From positions 1 through 38,746 of IMG/VR virus record IMGVR_UViG_3300022752_003478: a stretch of DNA of 38,746 nucleotides, one strand, 5' to 3'. The notes under the pieces were generated by a model, which saw only the letters and a list, made by a program, of their open reading frames with translations, did no database searches and was not told the DNA's origin. This stretch comes from a virus. The translations under genes and the position numbers were made by a program. Of this stretch, positions 10,924-38,098 are shown piece by piece. Numbering within the stretch: the first letter of the stretch is position 1; each line of letters begins with the position of its first letter.

Positions 10924-13149
10924 ATGTTCCTTGACCACTTCTTTCAACCTGATCCCCATTTGGTTTTTGAAATACCATGGAATGATGATCCATTTTCCTA
11001 TGATGAAGAACTTTATGACCTTGGACAGGGTCATAGAGAATTCGTTATACTAAATCCTAGAATTGATACGAAAGATTTATTCTATGTCAATGAAATTCCT
11101 CGTACAGATAAGTGCCTAGTATGGCATAACGGTGAAACTTGGTTAGCCAAATATTTTCGTAAAGGGTGGCGGCCCTATAAAGGTTACCAAGAAATAAGAA
11201 TTGAGCCTACTGAGATTGTTTGGTCTTGGAACCCTGACATAGACAAACTCATGCAGTTTGAGGAAGATATCTATACAACCTTTCAACCGGACCCATGGGA
11301 CAGACAGTTTAAATTAGTTTGGTATATTGATAATAGATTCAATCCATTAGAAGAGAATGTATGGGCGTTTAGTTGTCAACCAAAAGGCAAGGTTGATCCA
11401 ATTAGGAAAGAAATGGGATTTGTTACGCCAAAAGTTAATGTTGAATATAACAAAGACTTACCTAGACTTTTTTTAGATATAGATCAATGTTATCCACCAT
11501 TTTGGGAATTGGTAAATGAATGTGCCTATCAATTAGACAATAAATTTGCTCCAGAAGATCCTATTTGGGTTGTTAAATTTTCTCCATCCTATCGAAAGCC
11601 TAGAGAGTGGAAATGGCTAGGAGTAATAGAACCTCAATTTGAGATTGAATATAATACAGAAATTTCTAAATTAAATTATGATATTCTTCCATATCACAAA
11701 TGGTTTGACTTAGAATATCAGCATGTATATTTTTTAGACAGAGCGTATCTACAGAACAATGAACCCGATATTTGGGTGTTAAAGTTAAGATATACAGAGG
11801 AACCATCTGGGGATAAGGATCAAGGATACATCCATCCTAAATTTAAAATTGTTAAAAATCCAAATTTACCCGATTTAAATTATGATGTTGAATATGTTCC
11901 TCCATACCATGACTTAGCCTTTGAACATATATGGATGTTAGACTCAAGTCTAACATCAAACAGTCCAGAACCAATCTGGGCATTCAAGGCTATATCTGCT
12001 AAAAAATCAAAAGGGTCAAAGATTGTAGGAGAAGTCTACCCTAAAACCTATATTGAGATTAACCAAGATCTCTCACCATATCGATTTAGTTCACCTCAGT
12101 TTCCATTAGATTATCATGATCTTGGATATCTTCATGTGTGGTATGTGAATAGTAAATTAGTTGAGCAGTCTGGTATATGGGCTTTGAGTCTAAGTTTTGT
12201 AGAAGAATGTCAAGGATTCAAAGAGTATGGAGAAATTGATCCAGACTTTACCTTTAAGAAGAATCCTGCCCTATCTGGTATAACTTACGAAATTGACTAT
12301 AAAATTCCTCTCATTGATGCACAGTATGAACATATATGGTATCTAGAAAAAGAAAATAAAAAAATATGGGCCGCAAAGTTATCAGCAACAGAAACGCCTA
12401 CGGGCACGAAGGAAGTTGGTCTAGTGATTCCAGAAATAGCCAAAACGTTAGATGTATTCTTTATAAGTTACAATGAATCTAATGCAGAGAAAAATTGGAA
12501 ACATCTTAAAAAATTAGTGCCATGGGCCCAGAGGGTAGATGGAGTAAAAGGGATTTTTGAAGCGCATAAACAAGCGGCCATGTTGTCCTCTACCGACATG
12601 TTTTATGTAGTTGATGCTGATGCTAGAGTCTTGCCCGATTTTGACTTTGCCTTTAATCCAGATCTCTTTGATAGAAAATTTGTTTACATTTGGAAAAGTA
12701 AGAACCCTTTTAATGATCTAGAATATGGTTATGGGGGTGTTAAACTTTTTCCTAAAAAACTTTTTCAAAACAAAAAGACATGGAATCAATTAGATGTTAC
12801 TACAACTTTGGCCAAGGGGTTGAAAGTTATAGAAAAAACCAGTAACATAACAGAGTTTAATACTGATAAGTTTAGCACCTGGAGAAGTGCATTTAGGGAA
12901 GCAGTAAAACTTTCAGAGAACAAAAACTATAAGGCATTAAAAAATTGGGTGACCAAACTAGATGCCAAATACGCCGACCAAGCCTTGAAGGGCATCGAGG
13001 ATGGAAAAAAATATTATTCAATCAATAAAGATCACAAAAAGAATCTACTATTAATCAACGACAGAGATTGGTTGGAACAAAAATTTAAGGAACAGAATGT
13101 CAGATACGAACCACGAAAGAATACAAAAAGTAATACCAATAATCAATAA
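10924..13149 (+). CDS. tandem-repeat protein with glycosyltransferase-like C-terminal domain
   Basis: About 741 residues. I prefer the ATG at 10924 (MFLDHFFQPDP) over a TTG five codons earlier. About six repeats of 67-75 residues run from roughly residue 95 to 505, each with an N.DL...YDI region, a YEHIWYLD-like core, an IWALKL-like strand and an ending like G....GEIDP. The last 230 residues differ: LDVFFISYNESNAEKNWKHL, then STDMFYVVDADARVLPDFDF and GGVKLFPKKLF, which looks like a GT-A glycosyltransferase with a D.D metal site (VDADA). Repeats may bind the acceptor or scaffold partner enzymes. Head of the long operon; its end overlaps the first radical-SAM gene by 53 bases. Confidence 0.6.
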   Translation: MFLDHFFQPDPHLVFEIPWNDDPFSYDEELYDLGQGHREFVILNPRIDTKDLFYVNEIPRTDKCLVWHNGETWLAKYFRKGWRPYKGYQEIRIEPTEIVWSWNPDIDKLMQFEEDIYTTFQPDPWDRQFKLVWYIDNRFNPLEENVWAFSCQPKGKVDPIRKEMGFVTPKVNVEYNKDLPRLFLDIDQCYPPFWELVNECAYQLDNKFAPEDPIWVVKFSPSYRKPREWKWLGVIEPQFEIEYNTEISKLNYDILPYHKWFDLEYQHVYFLDRAYLQNNEPDIWVLKLRYTEEPSGDKDQGYIHPKFKIVKNPNLPDLNYDVEYVPPYHDLAFEHIWMLDSSLTSNSPEPIWAFKAISAKKSKGSKIVGEVYPKTYIEINQDLSPYRFSSPQFPLDYHDLGYLHVWYVNSKLVEQSGIWALSLSFVEECQGFKEYGEIDPDFTFKKNPALSGITYEIDYKIPLIDAQYEHIWYLEKENKKIWAAKLSATETPTGTKEVGLVIPEIAKTLDVFFISYNESNAEKNWKHLKKLVPWAQRVDGVKGIFEAHKQAAMLSSTDMFYVVDADARVLPDFDFAFNPDLFDRKFVYIWKSKNPFNDLEYGYGGVKLFPKKLFQNKKTWNQLDVTTTLAKGLKVIEKTSNITEFNTDKFSTWRSAFREAVKLSENKNYKALKNWVTKLDAKYADQALKGIEDGKKYYSINKDHKKNLLLINDRDWLEQKFKEQNVRYEPRKNTKSNTNNQ

Positions 13150-14476
13150 CGTAAGTCCGTCTTTTTGTTTGGCCAAATGGTTTCATGTTACCTTGTATCT
13201 ACAAACAGGGGAAAATCATAGTTGCTATCATCCCGCACCTCATGCTATTGAAATAGATGAAATTAAGAACAATCCCAGCGCTCTACATAATACCATGCAC
13301 AAAAAATTAGAGCGACAAGAAATGAAAAAAGGCGTCCAGACTAAAGGATGTCAATATTGCTGGAACATTGAAAACATGGGCGATGGTTACATCAGTGATA
13401 GGCATATTAAAAGCGGAACTATCTACACACCTGAAAGATTAAAGTTAGCCAAAGGATCCTGGAAGAATGATGTCAATCCAGAATATATTGAAATAAGTTT
13501 TGGTAATGAATGTAATTTTAAATGCGGGTATTGCCATCCAAAGGCCAGTAGCAGATTTTACAATGAGATACGTGAACACGGCCCAGTTACCACAGTGAAC
13601 AATCATAGGTGCGACATTGATTGGTTTAGGTTATATGAACGAGAAGAAGCCAATCCCTATGTAGATGCATGGTGGAAATGGTGGCCCAGTCTAAAACAGG
13701 ATCTTACTATTCTACGTATCACAGGTGGCGAGCCTTTAATGCATACTAGTACGTGGAGGCTTTTAGAGGATTTGAAAAAGGATCCGGCTCCTGGACTGGA
13801 ATTAAATGTTAACAGTAATTTAGGTATGAAAACTGCATTAGTTGACAAACTCATTAACAATGTTAATTACCTAATTGAAAATAATTCTATCAAAAGATTT
13901 AAATTGTTTACTAGTATTGATACTTGGGGTCCTCGTGCAGAATATATACGAACAGGGCTTGATATAAAGTTATGGGAAAGTCACCTTGACAAATACCTTA
14001 AAGAAGTAGGCCATCCTATTAGTTTTATGATAACATTTAATATTTTAAGTGTTACTACCTTTCATTTATTGTTGAAAAATATCCTTAAATGGAGGAAAAA
14101 ATATAACAAGTATAATAAGACTGATCAATATCAGATGGTTAGATTTGATACACCCTATCTCAAAGAACCATTACAATATGACATCAATATTCTACCAAAA
14201 GAACAATATATGCCCTACATGTATGATTGTCTAAGTTTTATAGAAAAGAACACAGACGATCATGATCCATTTAAGTTTAGTCTAGTAGAGTTTGAAAGAT
14301 TCCGTAGAATTGTAAAATATATGGAAACCACAGTTTATGATAATGCAAGAACACACGAAGGCAGAAAAGATTTTTATAATTGGTTTACTGCATTAGACCA
14401 AAGAAGAGGTACTAATTTTCAAAAAACATTTCCAGAAATGAAAGAATTTTATAAAGAATGTTCAAAGAAAAATTAA
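13097..14476 (+). CDS. twitch-type radical SAM protein (divergent)
   Basis: A 459-residue radical-SAM enzyme. The [4Fe-4S]/SAM motif is C139-x3-C143-x2-C146 (ECNFKCGYCHP) and the SAM-binding GGE motif is present (RITGGEPLMH). An N-terminal cysteine set, C24 (FCLAKWFHV), C43 (HSCYHP) and C85/C88 (GCQYCW), aligns with the auxiliary-cluster twitch region of the next three genes, although its second motif lacks the CC doublet they share. Such auxiliary clusters usually position peptide or sugar substrates or relay electrons. The chemistry is unknown. The start at 13097 is required to keep C24 and makes a 53-base overlap with the repeat protein, implying tight coupling. Confidence 0.75.
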   Translation: MSDTNHERIQKVIPIINNVSPSFCLAKWFHVTLYLQTGENHSCYHPAPHAIEIDEIKNNPSALHNTMHKKLERQEMKKGVQTKGCQYCWNIENMGDGYISDRHIKSGTIYTPERLKLAKGSWKNDVNPEYIEISFGNECNFKCGYCHPKASSRFYNEIREHGPVTTVNNHRCDIDWFRLYEREEANPYVDAWWKWWPSLKQDLTILRITGGEPLMHTSTWRLLEDLKKDPAPGLELNVNSNLGMKTALVDKLINNVNYLIENNSIKRFKLFTSIDTWGPRAEYIRTGLDIKLWESHLDKYLKEVGHPISFMITFNILSVTTFHLLLKNILKWRKKYNKYNKTDQYQMVRFDTPYLKEPLQYDINILPKEQYMPYMYDCLSFIEKNTDDHDPFKFSLVEFERFRRIVKYMETTVYDNARTHEGRKDFYNWFTALDQRRGTNFQKTFPEMKEFYKECSKKN

Positions 14477-15726
14477 AATTAAAACAAAAATACCTTTTAG
14501 AAGAAAGTAAACATTTCTGTATATTACCTTGGTTACACATACATTCTGTACCAAATGGTAATGTTAGTCCTTGTTGCATATCTTACCCGGGTCACTTTAC
14601 AGGCAAAGTTAAGTCGGAAACTAGATTAATGGAATTAGTTAATTCTGATCCTATGAAACAGTTAAGGTTAAACATGGTAGATGATAAACCATCTACCATC
14701 TGTAAAACCTGTTATAATACTGAGGCAATTGGGGGTGCCAGTTTCAGACAGCATTCTAATAAGATTTATGCACAATTTTATGAAAGGGCTGTATCTAATA
14801 GCACAGAAGAAAGTGGTAATCTTACAGAATTTAAAATGAATTACTTTGATTTTAGATTCAGTACGATTTGTAATTTTAAATGTAGAACCTGTACATCGGA
14901 TTATAGTAGCCAATGGGAACAGGAGAATGTCAAACACAAAAAGGATTACGTGCCTATTCGGAGAGAAAAAAGTACACCTCTACTAGATGATATTATAGAG
15001 CAGATACCAAACATGCACGAAGCATATTTTGCAGGTGGAGAGATATTGATAACAGATGAACATTATACTTTGTTAGAAAATATGATAGCGAAAGGTAAAA
15101 CTGACACTATTCTAAAATATAATACCAATCTCAGTGTTTTTAATTTTAAAGATAAAAATCTAATTGATCTCTGGAAGCAATTTAAGTTTCCTATTAGTAT
15201 CGGCGGTAGTCTAGATCATTATGGTTCTAGAGCAGAATACCTAAGACACGGAACTGATTGGAACAAGATTGCTGATAACATTCGATATCTAAAATCTAAT
15301 TTAGGTTCCAAGGCAGACCTATGCTATAATACAGTGCTTAGTGTTTTTAATGTTCTAACATTACAGGATTTCTATAAAAATCTAGTAAGAGAAAATCTTT
15401 ATGATCCTACAATTGACGGGGTGTTTAGTATCTATAAAATTTCTTCTCCAAGTTATTATAGTCCTCATATTCTAAATTTAGAAGAAAAATCCTATGCTAT
15501 TGGACAAATCGAGCAACTAATAAATTTCTTCCGACTTTACAGAAGAGATAGGAACAGATTTGAAAGTATTAAAAAAGTTCTTGAAGATACTATTACATTT
15601 CTTAAACTAGATATTGATTTGAGTAAGGAAATTGATATGTTTAAACAAGAAACTTTGCGTTTAGATCAAATTAGGAAAGAAAATTTTGTTGATATCTTTC
15701 CTGAATTAAAAAGGTTAGTAGAATGA
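14458..15726 (+). CDS. N-terminal twitch-type radical SAM protein
   Basis: A 422-residue protein. The N terminus HFCILPWLHIHSVPNGNVSP followed by CC (C39/C40), and C82-x2-C85, form the auxiliary Fe-S half typical of the twitch-domain-containing radical SAM family. The radical-SAM core follows with C138-x3-C142-x2-C145 (TICNFKCRTC) and AYFAGGEILIT. It belongs to a tandem set of three close paralogues (this gene and the next two). Product unknown; the family often accompanies glycosyltransferases and SGNH proteins in phage and aquatic bacterial genomes, as far as I know. Overlaps the previous gene by 19 bases and the next by four. Confidence 0.8.
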   Translation: MFKEKLKLKQKYLLEESKHFCILPWLHIHSVPNGNVSPCCISYPGHFTGKVKSETRLMELVNSDPMKQLRLNMVDDKPSTICKTCYNTEAIGGASFRQHSNKIYAQFYERAVSNSTEESGNLTEFKMNYFDFRFSTICNFKCRTCTSDYSSQWEQENVKHKKDYVPIRREKSTPLLDDIIEQIPNMHEAYFAGGEILITDEHYTLLENMIAKGKTDTILKYNTNLSVFNFKDKNLIDLWKQFKFPISIGGSLDHYGSRAEYLRHGTDWNKIADNIRYLKSNLGSKADLCYNTVLSVFNVLTLQDFYKNLVRENLYDPTIDGVFSIYKISSPSYYSPHILNLEEKSYAIGQIEQLINFFRLYRRDRNRFESIKKVLEDTITFLKLDIDLSKEIDMFKQETLRLDQIRKENFVDIFPELKRLVE

Positions 15727-16967
15727 AAGATGATTTAAAAAATAAAAAAGATCACCTACTAAAAGAAAGTAAGGTGTTTTGTATGTTTCCTTGGTTACAT
15801 CTAAATGTAACTCCCAAGGGCGATATCTATCCTTGCTGTAGTAATAACTATTCAGAACCATTTGGTAATACCAAAACTATTTCTCTAGAGCAGGCTATAA
15901 ATTCTGAAAAGATGAAAGAACTGCGTTTGAATATGTTAAATGGTGTGCCTAGCAAGATTTGTGAATTCTGTTATAAACATGAAGAAGCAGGACCTCATAG
16001 TTTTAGAAATTACAGCAAAGACAACTTTGCCAAATACTATGACGAACTAATACCTGCCACAGAAGAAGATGGATCAATAAAAGATTTTAGGATGAGATAT
16101 TTTGATATCAGGTTTAGTAATATTTGTAATTTTAAATGCAGAACCTGTGGTGCCGAATTTAGCAGTCAATGGGCTGCTGAGAATCGTGTTTATGACAAGA
16201 CTTTACCTATTCTGATGCACGCTGATGATCAAAAAGGCAATCTACTTGAAGAAGTTTTGTCACACATTGATCATATTGATCTAGCCTATTTTGCAGGAGG
16301 TGAACCTCTTATCACTGATGAACATTATGTTATGTTAGAGGAGATGATTAGGAAAAAGAAAACCAATATCATACTGCGCTATAATACCAATGCGAGTAAT
16401 ATAAAGTTTAAAAATTATGATATTCTAAAATTATGGAAACACTTTAAAAAGATTGAACTAAGTTGTAGCATTGATCACTATGGAGACAGAGCAGAATGGA
16501 TAAGGAAGGGAACTGATTGGGGAGTAGTAGAAACCAATCTATTAAAGTTCCGTGACTTAAAATATGTTTCTTTTCAAATAAACACGGTTTTTAGTATTTT
16601 TAATTATTTGACTCTATCAGACTTTTATTCATATATGATAAAGAAAAATCTTATACGAAAAACTGATTGGCACAATAGTTTATATTTGGCTATTCATCCT
16701 AGTTATTACAGTGCTAAGAGCCTGCCTGTCAAATTGAAAAAAACTGCAAGGGAAAAAGCATACCTTCTCCTATTAAATGAAGCCAAGGATTACCCACAGT
16801 TAAATACGCTGGTACATGATGCTATCATATTTGCAGACGAATCTAATACATGGGCAGAAAACAAACAGATATTTTTCAAGCACACATTAGACATAGATGC
16901 ACTTCGTGATGATAATTTCTTCAAGACCTTCCCAGAACTACGCCCACTAATAATGGAATTAGAATGA
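15723..16967 (+). CDS. N-terminal twitch-type radical SAM protein
   Basis: A 414-residue paralogue of its neighbours. The auxiliary site is C20 (VFCMFPWLHLNVTPKGD), C38/C39 and C80-x2-C83; the catalytic motif is C135-x3-C139-x2-C142 (NICNFKCRTC), with LAYFAGGEPLIT as the SAM-binding GGE segment. The later DHYGDRAEWIRKGTDW block is shared with the genes on both sides and is probably a substrate- or SAM-contact region specific to this subgroup. The start overlaps the upstream stop by four bases (ATGA). Three such enzymes in a row suggest successive or combinatorial modification of related sites. Confidence 0.8.
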   Translation: MKDDLKNKKDHLLKESKVFCMFPWLHLNVTPKGDIYPCCSNNYSEPFGNTKTISLEQAINSEKMKELRLNMLNGVPSKICEFCYKHEEAGPHSFRNYSKDNFAKYYDELIPATEEDGSIKDFRMRYFDIRFSNICNFKCRTCGAEFSSQWAAENRVYDKTLPILMHADDQKGNLLEEVLSHIDHIDLAYFAGGEPLITDEHYVMLEEMIRKKKTNIILRYNTNASNIKFKNYDILKLWKHFKKIELSCSIDHYGDRAEWIRKGTDWGVVETNLLKFRDLKYVSFQINTVFSIFNYLTLSDFYSYMIKKNLIRKTDWHNSLYLAIHPSYYSAKSLPVKLKKTAREKAYLLLLNEAKDYPQLNTLVHDAIIFADESNTWAENKQIFFKHTLDIDALRDDNFFKTFPELRPLIMELE

Positions 16968-18247
16968 TTAAAAAGAATCAAATTGATGAATCCAAATATT
17001 TTTGTATCCTGCCCTGGATACATTTTCATGCTTGGCCTAACGGCAAGGTATTTCCCTGTTGTATGGCAGATAGTTCTATTCAGTTTAGTTCAACAGAAGA
17101 AGAGTCTGTAATTAAGATGATGAACGCAGATGAGTTCAAAAAGATAAGGCTCAACATGATGGACGAGAAACCTAGTCTAGCCTGTAAGAGATGCTATGAC
17201 TTAGAAAAGCATGGTATATGGAGCCTTAGAAAAAGTCATAACAAGGTACGAGGTGAAGAAAGTTTTGATCTAGTCAAGGCCACCAAAAAAGATGGATCAA
17301 TTGAAAACTTCAAGTTCAAATATATGGATATTAGGTTTAGTAATATCTGTAATATGAAATGCAGAACCTGTGGGCCTGAATGTAGTAGTCTCCACGCACA
17401 AGAATATACAGAAAAGAAATGGTCTAAGGAACATCTTAAGATATGGTTTAACATGGATAAGATCGTGGTCAACTGTAATGAAGATGGTAAGTTCATGGAG
17501 AAACTTAAACCGCACCTTGCTGATGTAGAGGAGGTTTATTTTGCAGGTGGTGAGAGTCTTATTACTCCAGAACACTACGAACTACTAGACTTTTGGATAG
17601 CACTTGAAAAGTTTGATGTTAATATTACCTATACTACGAATTTTAGTGTGTTCAAGTATAAAAAGAAAAACGTACTAGACTACTGGTCAAAGTTCAAAAC
17701 AGTGAAAATATATGCTAGCCTAGATGCTAATTACCAAGTTGCTGAATATCTACGCAAAGGTACAGTATGGAGCGATATTGAAAAGAATATACAAACAATT
17801 AAGAAGAAAGCACCTAATGTTACCTTTGCTCTTACACCTACGATCAGTATATGGAATGTACATAATTTTCCAGACATGTTTCAAGAGTGGTTAGACAAAG
17901 GCTACATCAATATAGACAGTGAATTAAGAATTAACCTGTTAACACATCCGTGGTGGGGTAATATCAATATCCTTCCTTATTTTTACAAGCAGCAGGTGGC
18001 AGAAAAGTGGCGTAAACTGCACGACGATCCTAAATTTCCACGTGAAGTGCATAATGCTTTTGGTGTTGTTTTGAACGCCTTAGAAGCAGATAAATCAGCT
18101 AAAAACGTAAAAAGCAATCCTGACGGATTGAAAGAATTTTTTGAAGAAAACAAAAAGACAGACGAAATACGGGGTGAAAGTTTGTTTCAGGTTATCCCCG
18201 AACTTAAGGACGTATACAAATGGACACTCGCAAACTCATCGAAATAA
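16964..18247 (+). CDS. N-terminal twitch-type radical SAM protein
   Basis: A 427-residue protein, third of the close paralogues. The auxiliary site is C14 (YFCILPWIHFHAWPNGK), C32/C33 and C74-x2-C77. The core is C129-x3-C133-x2-C136 (NICNMKCRTC) with VYFAGGESLIT. It diverges most in the C-terminal 150 residues, where it has THPWWGNINILPYFYKQQ in place of the SPSYYS/HPSYYS segment of the other two, so its substrate probably differs. The next gene starts 28 bases inside it. All cysteines expected for two [4Fe-4S] clusters are intact. Confidence 0.8.
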   Translation: MIKKNQIDESKYFCILPWIHFHAWPNGKVFPCCMADSSIQFSSTEEESVIKMMNADEFKKIRLNMMDEKPSLACKRCYDLEKHGIWSLRKSHNKVRGEESFDLVKATKKDGSIENFKFKYMDIRFSNICNMKCRTCGPECSSLHAQEYTEKKWSKEHLKIWFNMDKIVVNCNEDGKFMEKLKPHLADVEEVYFAGGESLITPEHYELLDFWIALEKFDVNITYTTNFSVFKYKKKNVLDYWSKFKTVKIYASLDANYQVAEYLRKGTVWSDIEKNIQTIKKKAPNVTFALTPTISIWNVHNFPDMFQEWLDKGYINIDSELRINLLTHPWWGNINILPYFYKQQVAEKWRKLHDDPKFPREVHNAFGVVLNALEADKSAKNVKSNPDGLKEFFEENKKTDEIRGESLFQVIPELKDVYKWTLANSSK

Positions 18248-19191
18248 AACAAAACAAAAAGTTTCTAGATATCACATGGCAGGTAAACAATTTCTGTAAC
18301 TATAAGTGCAGTTATTGTAATCCGGGAAACTATGAAGGCACGGCACGCAATGACAAAGACCTTGATATGTATCTAAATGGCATCAAGAATATTACTGCCA
18401 AATATCTTAAGAAAGGTTACAAGAATTTTAAGTTTTTCTTTAGTGGAGGGGAACCTACACTATGGCGTAATCTTATTCCTATCTGCGAATGGATCAAATC
18501 AGATTTGCCTAATTCAATAATCGCCCTGAACACTAACTTGAGTAGGCCCACCTCATGGTGGAAAAAGCATATTCATTTGTTTGATGATGTTGTTGGAAGT
18601 TTTCATATTGAATTTGCAGATCAAGAACGTTATAAACAAAATGCCATGTTCTTACATGATAAGTTAAATTATTTTAGTTGTAAGATGTTGATGCATGAAG
18701 AAAGATTTTGGGAGGTTGTTCAGTTTGGAGAAGAATTAAAGTTAATGCTGCCCAATTATTTTATTGAATGGACACCATTGTTTAACGAAATGACCTTAAA
18801 TGCTCGTCCCTGGGAATATAAAGATCCTAAGCATACAAAGTTTCTAGAAGAGCATAGTATTGATCAAAAGAGAACTGTCCCACAGAAGGTGATTAAGAAT
18901 CCGTTCTTTGCCATGGCCAAATGGGATGATCAAACTATTACAAGTATTAACAGCAATGAAATCACAGTAAAGCGTATGAACTTTTTTAAGGGTTGGGAGT
19001 GCTCCATAGGTGATTGTATTTGGATAAATCAAATTGGAATGATCAGTATGGGAACCTGTGGGCAGGTAAAAACTCTAGGACACATATCTGATGTAAAGAA
19101 TATTGGCCCACTGAAGATAACTTGTGAAAAGGAGCACTGTCATTGTGGCACAGATATTCTTATTCCAAAGAAAGCCGTAGCCGGAGTTTAA
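18220..19191 (+). CDS. radical SAM protein with C-terminal cysteine cluster
   Basis: A 323-residue radical-SAM protein of different layout: the catalytic motif is near the N terminus, C26-x3-C30-x2-C33 (NNFCNYKCSYCNPG), with FFFSGGEPTLW as the GGE motif, while a SPASM-like set of cysteines is C-terminal (WECSIGDC, GTCGQV, then CEKEHCHCG). This is the order usual for SPASM or twitch enzymes that modify peptides or sugars, and the opposite of the four preceding genes. It shares no N-terminal twitch. It abuts the B12-type gene with no intergenic base. A QueE-like assignment was considered, but the length and C-terminal cysteines argue against it. Confidence 0.75.
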   Translation: MDTRKLIEIKQNKKFLDITWQVNNFCNYKCSYCNPGNYEGTARNDKDLDMYLNGIKNITAKYLKKGYKNFKFFFSGGEPTLWRNLIPICEWIKSDLPNSIIALNTNLSRPTSWWKKHIHLFDDVVGSFHIEFADQERYKQNAMFLHDKLNYFSCKMLMHEERFWEVVQFGEELKLMLPNYFIEWTPLFNEMTLNARPWEYKDPKHTKFLEEHSIDQKRTVPQKVIKNPFFAMAKWDDQTITSINSNEITVKRMNFFKGWECSIGDCIWINQIGMISMGTCGQVKTLGHISDVKNIGPLKITCEKEHCHCGTDILIPKKAVAGV

Positions 19192-21420
19192 ATGGATTTT
19201 ACGCTAAGACATCTTGCAAATGACAACATAAAACCTAAAGAACGTCCTACAGAGGACGTAGCAGATTTACGCCATAGAAGTATGATGGATGCGATCGCAC
19301 CATATGCTAAACCAACAGAGCAAAAAAATCTTACTCCTGTTTATATAAATTATAAAACTAGGAATACCAAATTAGCTCTAGTGCTTTGTCCAGAATGGAG
19401 TCCCTATATGCCTCCTTTTAGTCTTGCTCGGTTAAGTGGTGTTGCCAAGAGTGCAGGATATGAAACTCATATTTTTGATCTCAATGTAAAGGCCTATAGA
19501 AAATTTAGAGATGATTGGTGGCCTAATAAAAAAATACCTTTTAGGCTTTGGGACCCAAGTGCTAGTTGGAGATGGTTAGGTGAAACTTATCATAGAGATG
19601 TCCATCCTTTATTAGAACCTTTACTTGAGGAACATGTTACAAAAATTATAAATCTTGATCCTGATGTTGTGGGGTTTAGTTTATACTACATATCTGAGGA
19701 ACCCAGCAAATGGATGGCACGTGAACTTAAACGACGAGCACCTCATATAAAAATAGCAGTAGGAGGACCAACTGTTCATAAGAGTTGGTTTGATATCAGG
19801 CCTGAATATGATTATGTTGTAGTTGGTGAAGGTGAAGGAAATCTACTTCTGATGTTAGAAGAAATTGAAGAAAAGAAGCAAGTAGAATATCCAAGAATTT
19901 TAAAACAGCCAGAAGAGGAACGTATTAATCTAAACAATATGCCCATGCCTGATTATGAGAGTATTGATTTTAGTTTATATGATTTACCAAACGGGGTAAA
20001 CAGTGAAATTAGTAGAGGATGTACAGCCAAATGTAGTTTCTGTGAAGAAACACATTTTTGGAAATATAGACAGCGTCAGGCAGTAGATCTTGTAACAGAA
20101 GTTGAATGGCTTTACTACAATAAAGGTACAGATATCATTTGGTTTATTGATAGTCTTGTAAATGGTAATATCAAAGAACTTCGTGCATTTGCTCTTGCAC
20201 TTAAAAGTAAAGGATTAAAGGTTAGATGGACAGGATATGCTAGATGCGACGGGAGGATGGATTTACAGTATCTTCAAGATCTAGCAGATGGCGGTTGTCT
20301 CATGTTTAACTTTGGAGTAGAGTCTGGTAGTCAAAGAGTCTTGGATGATATGCACAAAGGTGTAACCATTCGAGAGATGGAACAAAACTTTAAAGATTGT
20401 AAGACTGTAGGTATTTGGTGTGCTACAAATTGGATCGTAGGATTTCCTACAGAAAAATTTCAGGACTTCGCAGATAGTATAACCTTTCTTTGGCGGATGA
20501 GAAATAATAATATCAACAATGTAGGTGCAGGTGTTGGATTTGCACAAGGTCCAGAAACACTTACAGGACAAAATCCTCATAGATTCAATTTAAGTTTCCA
20601 AAAATATCTTACTCATTGGATTACCAAAGATTTCTCTATGGGCGGCACCCATGTAATGATGCGAGTTAAGTCCTTTCATATATTTCTTGATATGATGAGA
20701 GGTACTACACAGGCTTCTTTCAGTTATCCTGTAAGATTTAATCTAGCCAAAGAACATTATAAAATTCGTCTACATGAACCTAGTTTTAATAGAGAAGTTG
20801 AATATGAAAAATTTGATTACAATATAATCAATGTAGATATTAATCCTTATGCAAATACAATGATTAATGAAATGTGGGTATTCTTTAGGATGCTATGGCG
20901 TACTAGAGGTGGATACGATGCTACTATATTATTCAACCCGGAAATTGATGAAAGGGAGTTCGGATCTACTTATGGACCACACGGATTAACAGCAGTATAC
21001 AAATTTAGTATTACCAAAGACGGAAAATGGAAGGCAGACTTTGATATTAATTTTAAGCAATTACCTAATCCAGATGATAGGTTTAAAAACAATGAGCCAA
21101 AAAGAATGGGTCCTTTCTTTGCTGTAGACTTTACAAGATTACAGAGTAATGCTGCAAGGCGTTCACGTAAATTGTCTAGGCCTCCCTGGTCAGTTGAAGA
21201 TGGCAGATCAGATAAGGACTATGGAGATTTACTAAATGAAGAAGTGGAGTTAAATCCTAAAACAGACTTTACATTTAATTTTCATTATAAGGGAACAGGA
21301 GACTGGAGCAATCATTTAGATTACGTGATAGATGTGCCTAATCAAAGCACCATGGACGCTATACCTGAAAAAGAGGCAGAAAATTTAAACAAGATGATAT
21401 TTGTCAAGAAGGAATCATGA
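19192..21420 (+). CDS. B12-binding-domain radical SAM protein
   Basis: A 742-residue protein. Residues about 58-230 form a cobalamin-binding-like Rossmann domain (LALVLCPEWSPYMPPFSLAR, then DPDVVGFSLYYISEEPSKW, IAVGGPTVHKSW and YVVVGEGEGN). Many members of this class lack the DxHxxG cobalt-ligand motif, and I do not see one here. The radical-SAM motif is C277-x3-C281-x2-C284 (SRGCTAKCSFCEETHFW). Residues about 490-742 are an extra domain I cannot assign. Class members methylate unactivated carbons or remodel rings. In this operon a methylation, rearrangement or cyclisation on a sugar, lipid or peptide is possible, but the substrate is unknown. Confidence 0.8.
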   Translation: MDFTLRHLANDNIKPKERPTEDVADLRHRSMMDAIAPYAKPTEQKNLTPVYINYKTRNTKLALVLCPEWSPYMPPFSLARLSGVAKSAGYETHIFDLNVKAYRKFRDDWWPNKKIPFRLWDPSASWRWLGETYHRDVHPLLEPLLEEHVTKIINLDPDVVGFSLYYISEEPSKWMARELKRRAPHIKIAVGGPTVHKSWFDIRPEYDYVVVGEGEGNLLLMLEEIEEKKQVEYPRILKQPEEERINLNNMPMPDYESIDFSLYDLPNGVNSEISRGCTAKCSFCEETHFWKYRQRQAVDLVTEVEWLYYNKGTDIIWFIDSLVNGNIKELRAFALALKSKGLKVRWTGYARCDGRMDLQYLQDLADGGCLMFNFGVESGSQRVLDDMHKGVTIREMEQNFKDCKTVGIWCATNWIVGFPTEKFQDFADSITFLWRMRNNNINNVGAGVGFAQGPETLTGQNPHRFNLSFQKYLTHWITKDFSMGGTHVMMRVKSFHIFLDMMRGTTQASFSYPVRFNLAKEHYKIRLHEPSFNREVEYEKFDYNIINVDINPYANTMINEMWVFFRMLWRTRGGYDATILFNPEIDEREFGSTYGPHGLTAVYKFSITKDGKWKADFDINFKQLPNPDDRFKNNEPKRMGPFFAVDFTRLQSNAARRSRKLSRPPWSVEDGRSDKDYGDLLNEEVELNPKTDFTFNFHYKGTGDWSNHLDYVIDVPNQSTMDAIPEKEAENLNKMIFVKKES

Positions 21421-34928: not shown

Positions 34929-36016
34929 CTAAACAAACTCCTAATAAATTGGTCTTGATAGGGACAAATATTAACCATTTGATCAAACTTTATTTTATTT
35001 TGATTTAGTTTGTGTCCAAAAAGGTTTAATAATTTTTTATGAATTTTAGTATTATCACCTATAGAATCTTTTAGATTTTTTAAAAATATAAGTGCATCAA
35101 ACACAGATTTCTCAACAGGGTTTGACTGTGAGCTAGAATAGGAAATAGAATTTAAAAACCAAAATCCATAATCATGTAAAATCTCTAACATATTTTGAGG
35201 ACCGTACCAAATAAAGAAGTTATCTACTTTACTGAATTGCAAAGCCTTTAGAGTTTTTTCTGTCAATCTGGATCCTATCTCTTCTTCACTTTCCCAAATT
35301 ACATTTACCGCACTTTGATTGTAGTCTGTATAACTAGTAACATGATTCTTTGTCCACACATTACCACTAGCGAATTCATTACTATAAACGATGTCCTTGA
35401 GTGCAATTTCTGGAGATGGATATACATGAAAATCGTTTGGAAAGATTCCTAGAATTTTTTTATAGAGTCTATTACGCCAATCAGCACTTAGGTCTTCAGG
35501 CCTATTTCCGTGATATATTCCCAGTAGGTGATGTTTTTGTTCTTGTGGATAAAAATTTAAAAAACTATAACCTAATTGAAAATAATGCCTAATTACATTT
35601 ATAAAAGGATGATAAAAAACATTTTCATGAACAATTGGATCATTGGCAAAGTTATCAGTCAATAACAATAGATTACCTTGGTCCAAATATTCATATACGC
35701 TTTTTTTGACCGCTGCTTCTTCAAAGTTTAGGAAATGATTTTTAATATCTTCGCCGTTTGTTAGATGTAGGAATAGTTTTTGTTCAGCCTTATTTTCATG
35801 AAAAAGTTCATGAGAAAAGGCAAAGTAGGTAAAGTTTTTACTTCTAATATTGTCACTTCTTGTTTTTTTATCGTGATTAAATTTTAATATCAATTTCCTA
35901 TTACTACCACAATCAAATACAATTTCGTGATGTTCTAAATCAATTTGATGTGGTAAATTTTGTATAGGCCAAAATAGGCAAGGATCATAAGTAGGAATAT
36001 AAATTTCTACATTCAT
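34925..36016 (-). CDS. putative glycosyltransferase, TEK-motif family
   Basis: A 363-residue AT-rich gene product related to those at 22162 and 30110. [20 protein letters not shown] and [20 protein letters not shown], followed by [20 protein letters not shown], correspond to their inter-domain and nucleotide-binding blocks. The DEsYD element is replaced by a Ser-rich stretch. The N-terminal half is divergent. The ATG overlaps the stop of IscA by four bases, so this glycan-type gene is co-transcribed with the Fe-S assembly genes. Confidence 0.45.
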
Positions 36017-36333
36017 ACATTAAAACTTTCTCCACAGCCGCAACGGTTTTTCTCGTTTGGATTGCGAAATTCAAATCCTTCGTTGAGCCCTTGCTTGACC
36101 CAATCCATTTCAAGTCCTTCAAGGTAAACTAGGCTTTTACCATCTACATATATGTGAACTCCGTGTTGCTCATATATATGATCTCCTGATACAATCTTAT
36201 CCACATATTCTAGCACATAGGCTAGGCCACTACATCCTGTAGTTTTTACTCCTACACGTATGCCCAAACCCTTACCACGTTTCTCTAAGTTAGCCTTTAC
36301 ACGTTCTGCGGCGTTTTCAGTGAGAGATATCAT
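36013..36333 (-). CDS. iscA: IscA-type Fe-S carrier
   Basis: A 106-residue A-type carrier, family length. [15 protein letters not shown] (C34) and the C-terminal [11 protein letters not shown] (C98, C100) are the three conserved cluster-binding cysteines of IscA/Hes[21 protein letters not shown] is the usual N terminus. A-type carriers accept clusters from the IscU scaffold and hand them to apo-proteins. The start lies 17 bases inside the end of the IscU gene. The IscA label over SufA is from overall similarity (for example the [14 protein letters not shown] block). Confidence 0.85.
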
Positions 36334-37726
36334 GTTTCTTTTTATAATCTTCTATAGCGGCTTTGATTGCATCCTCTGCTAAGATAGAGCAATGTATTTT
36401 AACCGGAGGGAGCGCAAGTTCCTCTGCAATTGCAGTATTCTTAATCGTTGAAGCCTCGTTAATTGTTTTGCCCTTAACCCATTCAGTAACCAACGAAGAT
36501 GAGGCAATAGCTGAACCGCAATTATGTGATCCAACTCTATTGGAGAAAAATACATGTGCTCCATCTTCTAGTTTAAGATCATAAACCACTACCTTGTCAC
36601 CATCCCGCTCGCATCCACGCAGCATATTTTTATGGGTTATAGGAGAAATTTTAACAACTTTTATTCCGTTATGTATAAAATTTTGCACAATTGGCAATGA
36701 TTGATGTAGGTCTTCGATCGCAAGGAACAAAGAATCATAACCGGCTGTTGCTAACTTATTTCTGCGTTGCTCTACATAATTAGATTCATCTGCCCTATTC
36801 TGCATAAATTTTGGCATTTTTTTAGTGTAGACTTCTATACACTTTTTCTTTCCCGGGATAATAAAGTCTGGGCTAGCTGGTCCAGATGCAGTTTGAATCC
36901 AAATCTTTCCCGAAGACCATTTAGCAGCAATATTATTTTGTTCAAACAGCTCAATAAACTGTTTTTCTATGCTTGTTGGGACTGACCAATCTCTATTTTC
37001 CATACCCTCACGCCATTTAGAGATGTATTCGGGATTACTCCAGTTCTTTTTACTTGCAATACTTGCTTTCTTTTTTTTGGATTCTGGATCTTTACATCGG
37101 AATCCATGTTGGTTTTGAGGCAATAAAGATTTATCAAACGTTTTATTAAACTCAATCATTCTTTTGCTATTAGCTGATTTTATTTCTTTTCTATGTCTAT
37201 TATTAGTTAAAACTCGTAGTTCATGTTCTGTAATTTCATACAATTCTTGTCCAAGAATCAACTGTTGAGCTTCAATTGGACGATTGTCGGCGTTCCAAAA
37301 TATGTGCTCTTTTGTACAAAGTAATGTAAATGTTCCCGGATTAATGTTTTTACGACTAGTCTCACGCTGAAATGTAACAGCTAATAATTCATCGATATCA
37401 ACTGAGTGTTTAATAATGTCTCGTATCCTTTGGGGGTGAACTGTATTTCCGTCCCATGCTAATACTTCATCACCTATTTTCAAAGAAGAAATCTTTTTCC
37501 TATGAGTTGGAGTGTCAATAGGCATATTACTGGTAAGACAGCCGTAAGTCTTAAACTTAGCATCTGTAATTATTCCTTGCTCATTTACCTTAATCTGCAA
37601 CTTCATAACATCACCACAAGCAGGGGCACCAACCATACCAGTACCTACATCTTTATCATCTTTACTAAACGATCCTACGTTACGTGGATTTTCATAATGA
37701 TCAATAACCTGTTCTGAATACGCCAT
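36317..37726 (-). CDS. iscU: IscU Fe-S scaffold interrupted by an intein
   Basis: A 469-residue precursor. Residues 1-62 and 403-469 join to a 129-residue IscU with all landmarks of bacterial Isc[18 protein letters not shown] (C37, D39), [20 protein letters not shown] (the second cysteine ligand) and [15 protein letters not shown] (H105, C106 in spliced numbering). The spliced length and numbering match E. coli IscU almost exactly. Residues 63-402 are an intein inserted immediately before the cysteine equivalent to Cys63. Without splicing the scaffold should be inactive. Preceded by AAGGAG seven bases before ATG and a GGTAAATA box. Scaffold for [2Fe-2S]/[4Fe-4S] assembly; desulfurase and chaperones must come from the host, as none are in the window. 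Confidence 0.9.
36521..37540 (-). mobile_element. intein in IscU with putative PD-(D/E)xK-type homing endonuclease
   Basis: A 340-residue intein. It starts with Cys ([20 protein letters not shown], block A), has [11 protein letters not shown], block B as [10 protein letters not shown] (T138, H141), block F/G as [15 protein letters not shown] and NRVGSHN, and is followed by Cys as the +1 residue: all splicing residues are intact. In the middle, residues about 195-245 contain a NUMOD-like basic segment ([20 protein letters not shown]), and residues 250-350 have [16 protein letters not shown] (D287, E298) and [17 protein letters not shown], resembling DUF559/Vsr-like PD-(D/E)xK nucleases, not the common LAGLIDADG type. 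Likely a homing-capable element; nuclease class is moderately sure. Confidence 0.85.
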
Positions 37727-37774: not shown

Positions 37775-38098
37775 ATGATAAACATATCAACTCCTGCTCA
37801 ACATAAGATTATAGAATTACTTAAAGAAGAAAATAATCCTAATCTTAAACTAAGGACCTTCGTTCAAGGCGGCGGTTGCTCTGGGTTCAGTTATGGCTTT
37901 ACCTTTGATGAAGACCAGGCGGAGGACGATTGGGAATTTCCTGTAGGCCTGTTTAAGGTCCTAGTAGATGCTATGAGTATGCAATATCTCGAGGGTGCAG
38001 AAATAGATTATAAAGATGACATACAGGGTTCTAGTTTTGTAATCAAAAATCCTAATGCCCAAACAACCTGCGGTTGTGGATCAAGTTTCTCTGTCTAA
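37775..38098 (+). CDS. erpA: ErpA-type Fe-S insertion protein
   Basis: A 107-residue A-type carrier. [20 protein letters not shown] (C35), [33 protein letters not shown] (C99, C101) match E. coli ErpA nearly block for block, including the GGGCSGF..GF form that separates ErpA from IscA. ErpA delivers clusters to essential apo-proteins. It is encoded divergently from IscU/IscA across a 48-base region with two opposed late-type boxes. Its end overlaps the convergent unknown gene by 18 bases. Probably a second, host-derived carrier with a different client set from the IscA copy. Confidence 0.85.

Follow-up and report, generated by a model that had tools for sequence, protein, structure and literature searches.

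Can an iscU gene that is interrupted at the codon of a catalytic cysteine still encode an intact Fe-S scaffold, and what kind of element has settled there? The question is raised by a linear fragment of 38,746 bases from an uncultivated IMG/VR virus, analysed here over its whole length and referred to as the window. Calling it a phage rests on the IMG/VR call and on endolysin and virion-protein PHROG matches, and this label is a weak point. The gene and its parts lie in the window as follows.

36317..37726, minus strand: iscU precursor gene (extein-intein-extein) of 469 residues, from the open reading frame, a profile match and alignment
37541..37726, minus strand: N-extein, IscU residues 1-62, including Cys37 and Asp39, from alignment to a solved IscU
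36521..37540, minus strand: intein of 340 residues directly before IscU Cys63, from alignment, family and predicted model
36320..36520, minus strand: C-extein, IscU residues 63-129 (Cys63 as the +1 residue, LPPVK, His105, Cys106), from alignment

The reading frame at 36317-37726 (minus strand) contains no stop across its full 469 residues. Residues 1-62 and 403-469 together constitute an IscU (TIGR01999, 218.2 bits for a cut-off of 192.4), and residues 63-402 form the insert. When aligned by phmmer to the solved IscU chain 2l4x, precursor residues 1-63 fall on residues 1-63 and precursor residues 403-466 on residues 63-126; the insert therefore sits exactly before Cys63. The predicted spliced protein has 129 residues and retains, in the numbering of this alignment, Cys37, Asp39, Cys63, the LPPVK motif, His105 and Cys106, residues with recognized roles in IscU. 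As befits a class-1 intein, the insert is in frame within a conserved protein whose exteins are continuous without it. The original prediction had proposed an intein of 340 residues at 36521-37540, with splice junctions at Cys63 and an intact 129-residue product keeping all three ligand cysteines; the coordinates agree, and the junctions and product are borne out by the extein alignment to 2l4x, which runs continuously across Cys63.

The insert itself can be divided into a splicing domain, in two parts, and an endonuclease insert.

37229..37540, minus strand: N-terminal half of the splicing domain, with Cys1 and block B, C-T-K-E-H (intein residues 75-79), limits set by eye
36986..37228, minus strand: helical linker of the endonuclease insert, from predicted secondary structure, with no family match
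36641..36985, minus strand: predicted Vsr-like nuclease core (E192, PD225F, E236VY), from conservation and hhalign
36521..36640, minus strand: C-terminal part of the splicing domain, with the VYDL block F and His339-Asn340, from alignment and model

Block B and block F are the customary names of these motifs. Cys1, T-x-x-H and SHN are common to all 23 aligned sequences, each followed by a Cys (the inteins of loci L003 and L013 are identical), and Cys1, Thr76-x-x-His79, His339 and Asn340 are invariant in 24 of 24 aligned inteins, with a Cys next wherever the C-junction could be read. Within a more divergent set of 13 inteins, that of L237 has a Ser in place of Thr76, and L239 is cut before the end of the intein. 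With regard to the fold, an AlphaFold model of the intein alone (pLDDT 79) superimposes on 2lwy with a Z score of 18.4 at 1.7 Å over 131 residues, and further splicing domains gave Z scores of 17.5 (MtuRecA, 132 residues), 17.1 (SspDnaB) and 15.8 (gp41-1). A model of the whole precursor was discarded, its mean pLDDT being 60.6 and much of its nuclease part lying below 50. In the proposed check against intein profiles, the Pfam intein and Hint models match the window, and the divergent members scanned, below cut-off only. Motifs and the HINT fold of the predicted model argue for assigning the window insert to the class-1 inteins.

The endonuclease insert corresponds to intein residues 105-300, approximately. 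Its helical linker looks like NUMOD3, and the core that follows has the predicted order helix, strands, helix, strand. The signature E192 ... PD225F ... E236VY is invariant in all 13 inteins of the divergent set. Aligned with six Vsr proteins, the nuclease scored 32.0 in hhalign (probability 58%); 200 column shuffles gave no more than 26.0, and reversal gave 13.9. In this alignment E192 and D225 fall on Vsr E25 and D51, so that the Vsr mismatch endonuclease shares the Glu/Asp register as well as a similar helix-strand order; the Vsr His is absent, and the FWH of Vsr is replaced by EVY. No Pfam family matches the nuclease convincingly. On balance, we tentatively class it as Vsr-like. Intein nucleases of the Vsr type exist. 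A Vsr-like nuclease borne by an intron is reported in PMC11878797. Two sets of candidate relatives were rejected. The top BFVD match, phage G gp329, resembles DnaE and contains an intein; no such nuclease was seen in that intein, and the hhalign alignment covers the first 59 residues only. The PDB sequence matches of the nuclease and intein profiles (a designed TIM barrel and sugar-binding proteins) extend over a single helix-strand stretch and were attributed to chance.

The same intein family occupies the Cys63 codon in 47 viral contigs besides the window, several of which end within the intein. A protein query returned 32 further virus contigs with the insert (L001-L032, L031 being cut by the contig end) and 47 contigs with an intein-free IscU (L033-L079), these 79 loci being a set selected by the query itself. 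A profile of the intein only returned 40 contigs, namely the same 32 and eight new ones; those that were new or broken in frame were read, and all contain inteins in IscU at the same codon. Scanning for the N-junction pattern gave 43 viral stretches: the 36 new loci all run into the intein when read, the other seven belonging to already known carriers, and seven stretches are located on new contigs (L212, L220, L221, L226, L236, L237 and L239), two of which, L220 and L236, are identical in sequence. When the intein was searched by tblastn in 50,697 records of phages and 72,556 of plasmids, no match covered 80% of it, and the weak matches concern nearly exclusively the splicing domain.

Bacterial copies exist as well. 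In a collection of genome contigs, a two-pattern search gave no match; a single-junction pattern then revealed these copies, with 42 matches that comprise nine inteins and 33 intein-free natural variants (e.g., GCVSAIASS and GCLSAIASS). Two of these nine inteins belong to the family of the window. As far as gene names can be read from sequence, Candidatus Achromatium palustre (L169) has the order iscS end, iscU(intein), iscA, and Thiotrichaceae bacterium BB3 (L197) the order iscR-like, iscS, iscU(intein). NifU_N matches the split iscU and no other gene in the Achromatium assembly, and an additional gene in that of the Thiotrichaceae bacterium. The family is rare around both, being found in two of 369 genomes taken from BB3's class (BB3 itself and one weak match, E 4e-4) and in one of 195 genomes taken from Achromatium's order (Achromatium itself). 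The original description of a phage IscU intein thus holds in that the element was found in a phage gene, but it is too narrow because the same intein sits in bacterial isc operons. The other seven bacterial inteins are different, of the LAGLIDADG type, and interrupt the same cysteine of a NifU-like scaffold in six Omnitrophota and one Aerophobetes (L171, L177, L193, L196, L201, L204 and L209); PF14528 was above cut-off in the three that were scanned. The Omnitrophota locus L177 is cut off, and in L193, also from Omnitrophota, the frame continues into an unrelated gene.

How the intein and its host gene evolve was addressed by comparing alleles. Median dN/dS is 0.16 for the N-extein, 0.17 for the N-terminal splicing part, 0.20 for the middle, 0.10 for the nuclease, 0.11 for the C-terminal splicing part and 0.12 for the C-extein, each from the 15 to 44 of 300 pairs that are usable per part, most pairs being saturated at silent sites. 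These values point to purifying selection on exteins and intein alike. In a comparison of 24 alleles (276 pairs), the identity of the inteins does not track that of the exteins (rho 0.06); the intein is more alike than the exteins by more than 10 points in 21 pairs, and the reverse is seen in eight. The histories of intein and extein being unlinked, the intein is taken to be mobile. In L003 and L013, intein and C-extein are 100% identical and the N-extein 64%, as if conversion had proceeded outwards from the intein, and L013 alone may be a chimera; a likeness centred on the intein also occurs in the pairs L017/L021 and L015/L019. With 4 of its 54 inner branches starred, the extein protein tree has poor resolution, and no claims are built on it. 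A homing element would fit both the unlinked histories and the conservation of the predicted nuclease.

The neighbourhood of iscU in the window is itself related to Fe-S clusters.

36013..36333, minus strand: iscA, overlapping the end of iscU, TIGR02011 above cut-off
37775..38098, plus strand: erpA-type A-type carrier, divergent from iscU, NF010147 above cut-off
13097..21420, plus strand: six consecutive radical SAM genes, two of the six below the Pfam cut-off

The six radical SAM gene products are likely users of Fe-S clusters. Three tandem proteins encoded at 14458-18247 have their SPASM match N-terminal to the radical SAM match, an order that seems reversed. Among the 17 intein-bearing records examined, the window included and some being near-copies of each other, 15 carry an A-type carrier and nine carry radical SAM genes. 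The presence of iscU in marine viruses with adjoining radical SAM genes is already described in the accessible portion of PMC5332604.

Taken together, the analysis establishes gene structure, conservation, selection, a predicted fold and unlinked histories, and we hold with high confidence that the Cys63 codon of IscU houses a mobile class-1 intein with a putative Vsr-like homing nuclease; splicing, cleavage of the target and a benefit to the phage are inferred. According to the mechanism that we propose, iscU would be translated as a precursor of 469 residues, and the intein would excise itself by means of Cys1, the block B His, His339-Asn340 and Cys63 as the +1 residue. Excision would release an uninterrupted IscU of 129 residues in which the +1 nucleophile becomes a catalytic cluster ligand. 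The nuclease would cut intein-free iscU at a codon that can hardly change, recombination would copy the intein in, and homing would carry it from phage to phage and, on rare occasions, into the isc operon of a bacterium. The virus, for its part, would retain iscU because it encodes A-type carriers and, often, many radical SAM enzymes that depend on Fe-S clusters.

Other readings of the insert have to be weighed against this one. The window is a metagenome fragment, and the insert might in principle be an assembly chimera; the original prediction had itself listed this as a way to be refuted. The 47 other viral contigs and two bacterial assemblies share the arrangement at the same codon, however, and this recurrence across many contigs excludes chance and assembly error, so that we give a chimera practically no credence. 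A second possibility is that splicing has been lost and that the split IscU is a decayed passenger. A few alleles do look damaged: within the 24 whose inteins were aligned, L023 has a premature stop in the C-extein, after SSLVTE, and L114 has a frame break in the C-extein at LPPVK (L114:4120-4239). On the other hand, dN/dS remains at 0.10-0.20 across exteins and intein, the splicing residues are conserved, and the copy in the window is fully open, which together make decay very improbable.

More attention is due to the suggestion that the intein is kept as a post-translational switch, with splicing, and hence IscU activity, following redox state, iron or infection stage. The insertion lies at a catalytic thiol, possible responsive thiols include Cys1, the +1 Cys, Cys75 and Cys37 of the extein, and mycobacterial SufB and DnaB inteins do respond to oxidants according to published work. 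Furthermore, Cys75 of block B is close to invariant, occurring in 23 of 24 aligned inteins and in 12 of 13 of the divergent set. It is nevertheless missing in L117, and outside the catalytic residues the splicing domain has no cysteine common to all members: Cys310 is missing in three of 24 aligned inteins and replaced in L114, L115, L237, L169 and L197 of the divergent set, and Cys234 of the nuclease also varies among divergent members. Viruses of the same kind encode an intein-free IscU (47 of the 79 loci in the set picked by the query), and the history of the intein is unlinked to that of its host gene. We therefore consider a switch unlikely; the gate by redox state or infection stage advanced in the original prediction is unproven and not supported as stated, and the homing element described above is preferred.

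Cys63 is not the sole site of interruption. Directly before Cys37, a junction scan detected an intein in five viral contigs (L220, L236, L246, L247 and L248), and the end of another in L239 brings the total to six; L220, L236 and L239 have a second intein, at Cys63. Two Cys37 inteins are complete (L236:5637-6752, and L248:2239-3360 on the minus strand). Intein_splicing is above cut-off in both, and HNH_3 is above cut-off in L248 and just below it in L236. Those of L246, L247 and L239 are cut, and the nuclease of their Cys37 intein is therefore out of view. One pattern for a Cys106 intein in viruses gave two matches, both by chance.

Bacterial chromosomes add a further type of element. Ten of 42 genomes in the order of BB3 have a broken iscU, and RF00028 is above the gathering score in ten of ten of these loci (L367-L374, L381 and L382), which are chromosomal and were chosen because iscU is broken there. 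Six of the group I introns split GGT^GAT, between Gly38 and Asp39. The other four are near Pro102, shortly before Cys106: both sides of the CCT^GTA junction could be read in L374 and its 5' side in L373, and in L381 and L382 the site is deduced from the match ends. The intron of L367 encodes a protein of 261 residues, likely a LAGLIDADG enzyme as read by eye. Genes related to iscU are in this way interrupted at or near each of the three ligand cysteines by different types of predicted intervening element.

A third form of interruption is much shorter. Frame breaks in L024 and L026, which among the first 32 loci combine the intein with a stop-insert, and in L116, where a stop-insert follows Gly38 in one of the 24 aligned alleles, were the reason for scanning viral sequences for short inserts after Cys37. 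The pattern required a GGT codon for Gly33, a downstream GAY GTN motif and an insert of 4-32 nt, and the 96 viral stretches that it found are not a census. They represent 71 distinct alleles, among them L263, L264, L269 and L275; eight of the 71 are cut by an end. Judged by 60 nt upstream and 36 nt downstream of the insert, 59 are distinct. In 70 of the 71 a stop directly follows the Gly38 codon (TGA 39, TAG 18, TAA 13), and in 70, L338 being the exception, the downstream part restarts on a second GGN directly before Asp39; neither feature was demanded by the scan. The inserts at this first site are 5-10 nt long and cover all three frames, and one frameshift therefore cannot serve all. In 60 of the 71 alleles the downstream part continues in frame as far as the Cys106 motif, the other 11 being seven cut ones and four with a second insert. 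For 61 alleles, the C part has a dN/dS of 0.116, from 126 usable pairs among 1830. The value for the 22 codons that close the N part is 0.364, in a stretch that also has few silent changes (pS 0.465 vs 0.792).

The insert is closely preceded by a hairpin of 17 bp, which extends to the first base of the Gly38 codon. Across 53 distinct sequences, 97.0% of its cells pair, compared with 91.1% after shuffling and 27-41% when slid, and 47 cells are changed on both sides, compared with 11.4; none of 500 shuffles reaches either value. The covariation score is 0.208 (0.098 shuffled). Three of the five covariation measures exceed the shuffles, and two do not (pairs with two-sided change, 4 vs 3.1; further pair types, 13 vs 11.9). 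One pair is open in 15 of the 53 sequences, and the four two-sided pairs all link wobble bases. Third-base entropy over the last 14 upstream codons is 0.79 with the insert and 1.44 without (about 0.85 and 1.42 when Gly33, fixed by the pattern, is excluded), and downstream it is 1.18 and 1.25, respectively, in a comparison of 65 insert with 57 insert-free alleles that were not matched for kinship. Three intein-bearing loci (L017, L022 and L025) have the hairpin without an insert.

Four alleles that carry the first stop-insert have another, TAACTR, between Pro102 and Val103, at the following loci.

L287:730-849, second stop-insert
L288:3452-3571, second stop-insert
L330:1598-1717, second stop-insert
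L334:4112-4231, second stop-insert

An upstream hairpin is predicted at this second site in both of the two alleles folded. The two phage stop-insert sites coincide with the two bacterial group I intron sites, if the doubled Gly codon at the first is allowed for. RF00028 had no match in the 21 phage loci scanned, the stop-insert pattern is absent from 369 genomes of BB3's class, and inspection by eye of the 25 gene clusters most frequent in the neighbourhood of stop-insert iscU revealed no conspicuous homing endonuclease. One phage contig with a stop-insert iscU also encodes a permuted tmRNA (L327:4553-4953, minus strand; RF04321, 85 bits).

Among ribosomal bypass, split genes, re-initiation and other alternatives, bypass appears the likeliest reading of the stop-inserts, at chances that we would put near even. 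At the first site it would take the form of a stop-hop, GGN-stop-N1-4-GGN. In 63 of 71 alleles a start codon lies within the span from four codons before to six after the resumption point. It is often the native Met41, and 19 alleles have an ATG no later than the landing codon; re-initiation could thus serve many of the 63. The remaining eight have no ATG, GTG or TTG there in the frame of the resumption point. Bypass is weakened in turn by the fact that take-off and landing codons are the same in only 24 of 70 alleles and by the lack of a matching codon at the second site. Short natural counterparts of bypassing have long been presumed, and stop-hops demonstrated in synthetic constructs, according to the part of PMC5009743 available. 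Our wider proposal is that the codons at or near the cluster ligands form a battleground of inteins with Vsr-like, LAGLIDADG or HNH nucleases and of group I introns, where stop cassettes replace introns, ribosomes stop-hop and the homing site is evaded; the chances of this scenario seem to us evenly balanced. With such a cassette, a phage would retain IscU, and its DNA would have lost the match to the homing site of an intron or intein.

The IscU Cys63 intein is real and conserved, and is apparently unreported. The original prediction knew of no IscU intein, and our literature searches likewise found no earlier report. By title and abstract, with few subscription papers covered, neither an IscU intein nor the combination of intein, NifU and phage was reported, and no paper was found on intein, iron-sulfur, phage and auxiliary metabolic gene together; an Achromatium intein, an iscU group I intron and iscU bypassing were also unreported by title and abstract. 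Because the +1 residue is a catalytic ISC ligand, splicing-dependent Fe-S assembly is directly testable in E. coli by IscU complementation. The shared intein also ties phages to sulfur bacteria. It is the accompanying elements at IscU ligand codons that make the intein very interesting, a hot spot suggesting that unrelated selfish elements converge on cluster-ligand codons. If the stop-inserts are bypassed, natural bypassing would be widespread, whereas highly efficient bypass is known from one phage gene; the T4 gene 60 curiosity would become a class with dozens of natural variants, and one on which the hypothesized origin of bypass as a defence against homing nucleases would be tested.

With regard to known systems, one of the closest counterparts of the Cys63 intein is the SufB (Pps1) intein of Mycobacterium tuberculosis, which, as described in the available part of PMC8891592, is likewise of class 1 (C1, block B His, block F Asp, HN, C+1), interrupts an Fe-S scaffold and has Cys253 and Cys612 as C1 and C+1. 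It differs in being cellular and in belonging to another scaffold and pathway, SUF. The TerL inteins of mycobacteriophages are, like ours, phage inteins in active centres, and for some the cutting of intein-free alleles has been measured; the hosts covered in the accessible part of that study (PMC5050341) are, however, terminases and other enzymes acting on DNA or nucleotides, with no metabolic scaffold. As for the stop-inserts, the bypass of T4 gene 60, in the portions available of PMC5009743 and PMC3014915, shares with them a Gly take-off codon followed by a stop, a Gly landing codon and a 5' stem-loop, and has likewise been given a suggested link to group I introns and to protection from a nuclease. 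The stop-inserts differ in the gap between the two codons, which is 2-7 nt and in gene 60 about 50, in being represented by dozens of alleles instead of one, in affecting another gene, and in having identical codons in 24 of 70 alleles.
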